Below, one piece after another: positions 30,520-30,850 of a stretch of 64,000 bases of DNA (position 1 is its first letter; each line of letters opens with the position of its first letter). Location of the stretch: NCBI RefSeq assembly GCF_900100665.1, contig NZ_FNCS01000005.1, positions 124,001 to 188,000 on the forward strand, given 5' to 3'. A program made the position numbers and the translations under genes. Under the pieces are notes generated by a model. The model worked only from the letters and a program-made list of their open reading frames with translations. It did not search any database and was not told the DNA's origin. Source of the stretch: Pelagibacterium luteolum (GTDB lineage: Bacteria; Pseudomonadota; Alphaproteobacteria; Rhizobiales; Devosiaceae).

Positions 30520-30670
30520 CTGGCCGGTCTTCTGACTTGGGATCATCCCCGGCGGGCGCCTTCCCGGCTTGCGCCAGTGGCATATGCCCAACAGGTCCCC
30601 CGCACAGCGCTGGGCACGTCGCGGATTTCAACCGCGTTCCCGATTCTCCTGCAGAAGCAGGCACCAGATT
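30520..30670 (-). promoter_or_regulatory. Cobalamin riboswitch controlling bluB
   Basis: Read on the minus strand: AATCGGGAACGCGGTTGAA, then a C/G-rich segment, the B12 box GCCACTGGCGC (30571-30581 on plus), GCCGGGAAGGC, and the closing AAGTCAGAAGACCGGCC. This is the ordered conserved core of the adenosylcobalamin element. A further stem (AGCTGG/CCAGCT) lies between the aptamer and the bluB ribosome site, a likely expression platform. Confidence 0.94.
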
Positions 30671-30756
30671 TGGCGCCTATAGCGCGCAAGGTGCGCTGTG
30701 GCAAGACGGCGGTGACGGGTTGACATTGGGATGTCGATGCCGTTTCCTCACGACGT

Positions 30757-30850
30757 CCGAGGGGTGTCCGGGTCCGAAAGGATCTGGTCTGAGATGGCTG
30801 AGAGGCCGAACCCTTTGAACCTGATCCGGGTAATGCCGGCGAAGGGACGG
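30757..30850 (+). promoter_or_regulatory. TPP riboswitch (THI element) controlling the thi operon
   Basis: The plus strand holds GAGGGGTGTCCGG, then CTGAGATGGCTGAGA, then ACCCTTTGAACCTGATCCGG followed by GTAATGCCGGCGAAGGGA, the hallmark order of the thiamine pyrophosphate aptamer. It ends 66 bases before the thiC GTG. TPP binding should repress the operon. Confidence 0.97.

Follow-up and report, generated by a model that had tools for sequence, protein, structure and literature searches.

The divergent bluB and thi leaders

The window, by which we mean the whole 64,000-nucleotide stretch of Pelagibacterium luteolum DNA that was analysed, holds cofactor genes arranged around a short divergent region with bluB on its left and thiC on its right. 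An Rfam cmscan of the whole window found five RNA elements above the gathering score, three tRNAs and two riboswitches. The genes and aptamers are as follows.

28860..39200, both strands: probable transferred cofactor block queF-bluB-thiCOSGEFD-queCDE, ~10 kb
28863-29324, minus: queF (Pfam)
29737..30459, minus: bluB, 5,6-dimethylbenzimidazole synthase (TIGR02476, 280 bits, cut-off 150)
30505-30683, minus: cobalamin riboswitch aptamer (RF00174, 107.2 bits against a gathering score of 31.5, E 7.2e-26, model positions 1-189)
30750-30864, plus: TPP riboswitch aptamer (RF00059, 71.5 bits against a gathering score of 54.3, E 4.4e-12, model positions 1-105)
30917..32746, plus: thiC, phosphomethylpyrimidine synthase, GTG start (NF006763, 1028.8 bits, cut-off 650)
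32727..33749, plus: thiO (TIGR02352, 253 bits, cut-off 250.8)
33733..33930, plus: thiS-like frame of 65 aa with a Gly-Gly end (translation, named by eye)
33934..34704, plus: thiG (PF05690, 335.1 bits; no NCBIfam match at E 0.001)
34701..35300, plus: thiE (NF000734, 295.9 bits, cut-off 252)
35302..36276, plus: thiF-like adenylyltransferase (TIGR02356, 222.8 bits, below the cut-off of 275.25)
36273..37061, plus: thiD (TIGR00097, 282.3 bits, cut-off 204.95)
37194-37892: queC (NCBIfam)
37889-38248: queD (named by eye and position)
38236-38982: queE (named by eye and position; its sole match is Radical_SAM, Pfam)

The frame at 33733..33930 is presumably thiS, a name we give it from its position and C-terminus. 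Between queF and bluB, a 117-aa frame without a Pfam match (29321-29674, minus) has a 68-residue part that is 41% identical in two other loci (L007 and L141).

The two aptamers diverge with 66 bp between their model ends, and neither is a chance match. Each covers its whole covariance model at a score above gathering, and each is the leader of a gene of the matching pathway. The cobalamin aptamer precedes a B12-pathway gene, with 45 nt separating the end of its model match (30505) from the start of bluB (30459). The TPP aptamer precedes the thiamin gene thiC and comes with a predicted expression platform, a hairpin sequestering the Shine-Dalgarno (SD) sequence. An earlier note on this DNA had placed a cobalamin aptamer on the minus strand leading to bluB and a TPP aptamer on the plus strand leading to the thi operon, less than 100 bp apart and pointing away from each other. 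The covariance-model search it called for bears this out, both elements scoring above the Rfam gathering scores and both downstream genes being confirmed by their protein families (TIGR02476 for BluB, NF006763 for ThiC). Its interval of 30520-30850 marked the right region, but the boundaries trimmed both elements slightly.

A tandem riboswitch was rejected because the aptamers lie on opposite strands and diverge, and are thus not parts of one RNA. A mir-592 match across the gap is a chance hit, at E 0.43 and 18.6 bits where gathering requires 67. The assignment of ThiC as a Bza-type enzyme (BzaB, of the anaerobic lower-ligand pathway) was likewise rejected, as TIGR04386 gave 411.7 bits against a cut-off of 700 and NF006763 gave 1028.8. 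Each switch adds a member to a known family and is, on its own, textbook.

Predicted promoters, start sites and leader folds

Control elements around the aptamers were placed by folding, motif scans and alignment.

30466..30491, minus: bluB SD-sequestering hairpin (predicted, minimum free energy fold, MFE), arms 30491-30484 and 30473-30466, SD AGGGG at 30471-30467
30489..30507, minus: hairpin AGCTGG-N7-CCAGCT, candidate antisequestor, directly 3' of the cobalamin aptamer (terminator-like scan)
30676..30704, minus: predicted bluB promoter, -35 TTGCCA (30704-30699), 17-nt spacer, -10 TATAGG (30681-30676)
30720..30748, plus: predicted thi promoter, -35 TTGACA (30720-30725), 17-nt spacer, -10 TTTCCT (30743-30748)
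30880..30913, plus: thiC SD-sequestering hairpin (predicted fold), SD GGAG at 30906-30909

A standard promoter scan found no promoter-like site, so promoters were judged by conservation and a column-shuffle test. The gap alignment has eight rows, the window and seven Devosia loci, including two whose spacer duplicates that of another row; the shuffle test used six distinct spacer sequences, with 1000 shuffles and the best sigma70-type match scored out of 12. The gap is variable except for two conserved islands, GCAAG and TTGACATTGG. The first includes the complement of the minus-strand -35 box, and the second, at the thi -35 region, is invariant in 8/8 aligned rows. On the minus strand the mean best match was 8.2/12, reached by 5/1000 shuffles, and on the plus strand 9.0/12, reached by none of the 1000; a 10-column invariant run in the gap was reached by 3/1000. 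The bluB boxes are conserved in position in the Devosia relatives, with a best-fitting spacer of 17 or 18 nt depending on the locus. The thi -10 box is weak, agreeing with the consensus at three of six positions. Two divergent sigma70-type promoters are thus predicted to be packed into ~85 bp, and the expectation of the earlier note that both promoters must share this short gap agrees with the conserved promoter-like boxes present for each strand.

In the window 15 bp separate the two -35 boxes. Among 14 relatives' loci this distance is 15 bp in four (L007, L119, L120 and L035), 16 bp in nine and 51 bp in L062, where the boxes are dubious. A spacing of 15-16 bp is found in 12/12 Devosia loci, several of which have the same or near-identical sequence and hence are not independent, and in one of two Paracoccaceae loci. 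Such spacing could indicate that the promoters are coupled at the DNA level: the upstream contacts of RNA polymerase at one promoter would extend over the other promoter, the firing of one lowering the other's activity or, via supercoiling, raising it, and the riboswitches would act downstream of this coupling. RNA polymerase contacts extend upstream of -40, the narrow spacing recurs in 13/14 relatives' loci, and the 15 bp are also kept in Sedimentimonas flavescens (L035, Paracoccaceae), whose spacer is otherwise largely different. However, the divergent pair in L062 has a 101-bp gap and no comparable boxes, the Devosia loci are close kin and partly duplicates so that the spacing may be inheritance, and closely spaced divergent promoters are widespread and frequently act independently. 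We therefore regard coupling as unlikely.

Besides the promoters, the only candidate for shared control DNA seen was an inverted repeat, TTGACAT-TGGG-ATGTCGA (30720-30737), which spans the plus-strand -35 box. It might be an operator between the promoters, bound by a protein regulator that coordinates both operons, and TTGACATTGG together with CGATG is invariant in 8/8 aligned rows. Yet the right half of the repeat is unconserved (L007, L008, L010, L011 and L012 differ from the window), the -35 box accounts for part of the invariant stretch, and the bluB and thi operons each already have a full riboswitch. A shared operator is accordingly highly improbable.

From the position of the boxes, we infer that transcription starts at ~30669 on the minus strand and ~30755 on the plus strand. 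Each of these starts falls on the first stem of its aptamer, leaving 85 bp of DNA in between. In the cobalamin match, four of the outermost five pairs of the P1 model stem are flagged non-standard, and the stem AUCUGG/CCAGAU begins at 30669; this is expected if the bluB RNA starts downstream of the non-standard pairs, at 30669. The Rfam match would then start with bases that belong to the promoter. With starts at the P1 stems, the bluB and thi RNAs should not overlap. A leader RNA of ~110 nt upstream of thiC has been reported on a Northern blot from Agrobacterium, where it was the sole product with thiamine (PMC3738593); it fits a start at the aptamer and shows that a relative makes an RNA limited to the aptamer region.

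Both SD sequences are predicted to lie in hairpins. In the MFE fold of the bluB leader, GCUCCUGU (30491-30484) pairs with ACAGGGGC (30473-30466) and closes the SD AGGGG. The fold has a z score of -2.15, equalled by 7/200 shuffles, and in the unconstrained ensemble of the whole leader the SD bases are unpaired in less than 0.2%. The SD-side arm is the same as in the window in 6/8 aligned rows; the exceptions are L011, with an additional base, and L012, with a substitution. In the thiC leader, GGGUUUCC (30880-30887) pairs with GGAGACCC (30906-30913) around a GUUUUC/GAAAAC stem (z -2.17, equalled by 6/200 shuffles). This hairpin is identical in 8/8 aligned rows, and its SD bases are unpaired in less than 1% of the unconstrained ensemble. 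In unconstrained folds of both leaders the SD was closed and the native aptamers did not form; these folds showed no ON state or switching.

The arms of the AGCTGG-N7-CCAGCT hairpin are invariant in 8/8 aligned rows, with one variable loop base. Because it has bases in common with the bluB SD hairpin, the two are mutually exclusive, and it may act as an antisequestor. Cobalamin riboswitches are described as connecting the aptamer with the expression platform through an L5-L13 kissing loop (PMC9600662). An L5-L13 pairing was sought by eye only and none was established, while a hairpin is present 3' of the cobalamin aptamer.

The minus-strand RNA from ~30669 would thus begin with the cobalamin aptamer. 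When coenzyme B12 is bound, the bluB SD would be kept closed in its hairpin and less B12 lower ligand would be made. The plus-strand RNA from ~30755 would begin with the TPP aptamer, and bound TPP would let the hairpin over the thiC SD form and turn the thi operon off. Ligand binding and repression are in both cases those expected of the riboswitch family. Both leaders likely exert OFF control of translation, possibly with transcription control in addition; a mechanism through the SD only may be incomplete, because the Agrobacterium authors infer transcription control (PMC3738593).

The earlier note had also raised the idea of cross-talk between the two cofactor pathways. This idea is unsupported: the leaders would not overlap by the predicted starts, each has its own SD hairpin, and the inverted repeat in the gap is unconserved. 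Cross-talk at the RNA level found no support. The bluB and thi RNAs would be made without overlap and without need for a common regulator, and independence of the two leaders is our best reading of the locus. It is likely that the region consists of two separate, ordinary OFF riboswitches served by two divergent promoters in ~85 bp, within a probably acquired cofactor block.

Distribution of the pair and origin of the block

BluB loci were taken from a genome-contig scan, using the best 80 of at least 573 confirmed relatives and fetched flanks of up to 4 kb. Among these 80, thiC occurs in the flanks of eight loci, six from Devosia and two from Paracoccaceae, and is divergent in 8/8. A cobalamin aptamer scores above gathering in all eight and a TPP aptamer in six; in the two Paracoccaceae loci TPP falls just below gathering (53.7 and 51.6 against 54.3 bits). 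The six Devosia loci have gaps of 67-68 bp between the aptamers; L035 has 68 bp and L062 101 bp. A motif search placed the GCCACTG core no more than 700 nt before bluB in 55 of the same best 80. A strict TPP pattern picked out six loci (L007-L012) and missed L035 and L062; motif searching was hence not used for counts.

In a class-wide sample of 289 genomes, 32 have a BluB match of E 1e-40 or better. Divergent thiC within ~1.5 kb of bluB was seen in none of the 29 inspectable loci from the 31 BluB genomes other than the window's. One of these loci (L198) has a thiC fragment upstream of bluB on the same strand. ThiC occurs in 14/121 Devosiaceae genomes. Seven genomes of one genus (g16) have closely similar ThiC, and all seven, including G027 (locus L088), have divergent bluB and both aptamers. 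The other six ThiC genomes of the family have a TPP aptamer, and their 1.5-kb flanks hold neither bluB nor a cobalamin aptamer. The g16 genomes are evidently in part the same organisms as the Devosia BluB loci, so these counts overlap.

Some of these loci carry further cofactor genes. In three Devosia loci (L008, L009 and L012) an FMN riboswitch follows bluB, with its aptamer at ~4816-4966 on the plus strand. In L009, from Devosia riboflavina, it leads to ribD, ribE, a ribBA-type gene and ribH, past which lies queF, and the TPP, cobalamin and FMN riboswitches all lie within ~1.4 kb. This rib operon makes the precursor of FMN, BluB's substrate; BluB uses reduced FMN (PMC3621897). In L062 and L023, both of Rhodobacterales type, a queF-E-D-C cluster adjoins bluB; the former has divergent thiC, the latter no thiC.

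The P. luteolum genome is the only one of 13 genomes of its genus with a BluB ortholog; of the 12 genus-mates, 11 show only distant matches (E 1e-8 at best) and one shows no match. ThiG at E 1e-40 or better is likewise found in 1/13, QueC in 2/13 and CobQ in 13/13. The other QueC carrier (G005, locus L140) has queC-D-E-F together, and its 19-kb stretch is without bluB or thi genes.

A g16 genome (G067, locus L141) carries collinear DNA, with 29762-39200 alike at 84%, queF at 80% and the gene order kept. When 20001-48000 of the window was compared with the 19-kb stretch of G067, the only other match at E 1e-5 was a 137-bp piece at 29460-29593. The window's ThiC is 88-96% identical to those of the seven g16 genomes and 73.5% to that of G003, the sole genus-mate with ThiC. 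Trigger factor reverses this order, with 85-91% in six genus-mates and 65-69% in the seven g16 genomes. GlnA, taken as a control, gives 88-96% in the genus and 79-89% in g16, ranges that overlap and therefore support transfer weakly.

We also compared the insertion site. The gene at 27350-28312 was dropped as the left synteny marker, since its best match in the genus reached 50%, and glnA and an ABC-F gene were used. These are ~55 bp apart in G006 (between tblastn matches) and 17.9 kb apart in the window genome. G007, G008 and G001 have other DNA between the two genes, among it a relative of the 24296-25465 gene, and none of it matches the block. In the window this variable slot (21383-39327) also contains xanthine-dehydrogenase-like, beta-lactamase-family, GGDEF and zinc-dehydrogenase genes. 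Elsewhere the block sits apart from this slot: its thiC is ~357 kb away from tig-glnA in G067 and 94 kb away in G134.

The G+C content reaches ~65% over 32-37 kb, compared with 57-64% for the remaining 2-kb steps of the window, and the bluB part of the block does not stand out. Neither the tRNA positions in the window nor the repeats in 26500-41200 revealed a mobile-element signature; the tRNA nearest to the block is at 19159-19240, and the repeats are short or off the block edges. A putative terminal repeat (29144-29160 and 39235-39251, 17 nt, 88%) was rejected, as its left copy lies inside queF and repeats this short often arise by chance. A direct repeat of 36 nt, 83% alike (26500-26535 and 28372-28407), lies left of the block and flanks the genes at 26583-28312.

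The block is missing from close relatives, is nearer to a more distant lineage, and sits at another site there. Judged by these comparisons of genes and positions, it was probably gained by transfer from another Devosiaceae lineage, both the gain and its direction being our reading of them. The patchy presence would also be compatible with an ancestral block that other members of the genus lost; the divergent pair occurs in two Paracoccaceae loci and so may be old, and GlnA identities overlap between the genera. Loss, however, would have to have happened in 12/12 sampled genus-mates, and it sits poorly with an order of ThiC identities opposite to that of trigger factor and with the block's other chromosomal sites in G067 and G134. 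We consider it improbable and favour transfer.

Known counterparts and cofactor context

Parts of this arrangement have counterparts elsewhere. In Sinorhizobium meliloti and Mesorhizobium loti, a predicted cobalamin riboswitch is described directly upstream of bluB and was put in reporter plasmids (PMC5948670). The likeness is the cobalamin riboswitch before bluB, whereas in the window the bluB leader stands back to back with a TPP leader in a patchy cofactor block. Leaders with a thi box are reported for thiCOGE of Rhizobium etli and thiCOGG of Agrobacterium, in the latter of which thiamine represses (PMC3738593). These share with the window a TPP aptamer before thiC-thiO-...-thiG, but the window operon is longer, extending to thiD, and has a divergent bluB. 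They differ in control as well, a predicted SD hairpin in the window as opposed to the transcription control inferred by the Agrobacterium authors (PMC3738593). The metE gene of Bacillus clausii is described as having tandem SAM-I and AdoCbl riboswitches in one RNA for one gene (PMC2258182). There, too, two aptamers for different cofactors lie close together; those of the window are on opposite strands, in two RNAs serving two operons. Finally, plasmid pCMU01 of Methylobacterium extorquens is reported to carry B12 genes with bluB2, linked to chloromethane use (PMC3621897). It resembles the window in an accessory bluB delivered along with other cofactor genes, whereas the block lies in a 210-kb contig, includes que and thi genes and has a riboswitch for each divergent operon.

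In the P. luteolum genome, cobW lies just behind another cobalamin riboswitch, followed by cobN and a cobO-type adenosyltransferase gene, and further on by cobA, cobB, cobQ and cbiB/cobD-type genes. The block's bluB would provide the lower ligand and so complete this resident cob pathway. For thiamin, the genome's single ThiC match is within the block. A second cluster preceded by a TPP aptamer lies on another contig (L159, G000:C3:33000-43000) and comprises thiG, a thiF-like gene and, by eye, genes resembling thiD and thiO. The ThiG encoded there shares 73% identity with that of the block, and 12/12 sampled genus-mates are without a match to it at E 1e-40. Another TPP aptamer precedes genes that read by eye as a thiamin ABC transporter.

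The part worth following is the probably transferred and self-regulated block around the pair. A wider reading would make the divergent pair the compact control hub of a mobile, self-regulating module for the B12 ligand, thiamin and queuosine, joined in some Devosia by riboflavin with its FMN riboswitch, which passes between Alphaproteobacteria with a 15-16 bp spacing fixed by physically coupled promoters; we consider this unlikely. Should the promoter spacing reflect functional coupling, it would connect the two vitamin pathways in a modest way that lends itself to testing. Because both operons carry their own RNA sensor, the block would work on arrival. In a genus where cobQ is general among the sampled genomes (13/13) and bluB is not (1/13), the block's bluB shares its riboswitch class with the resident cobW. 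The locus may thus serve as an example of genes with their own cis-acting sensors, able to join the regulation of a new host at once.
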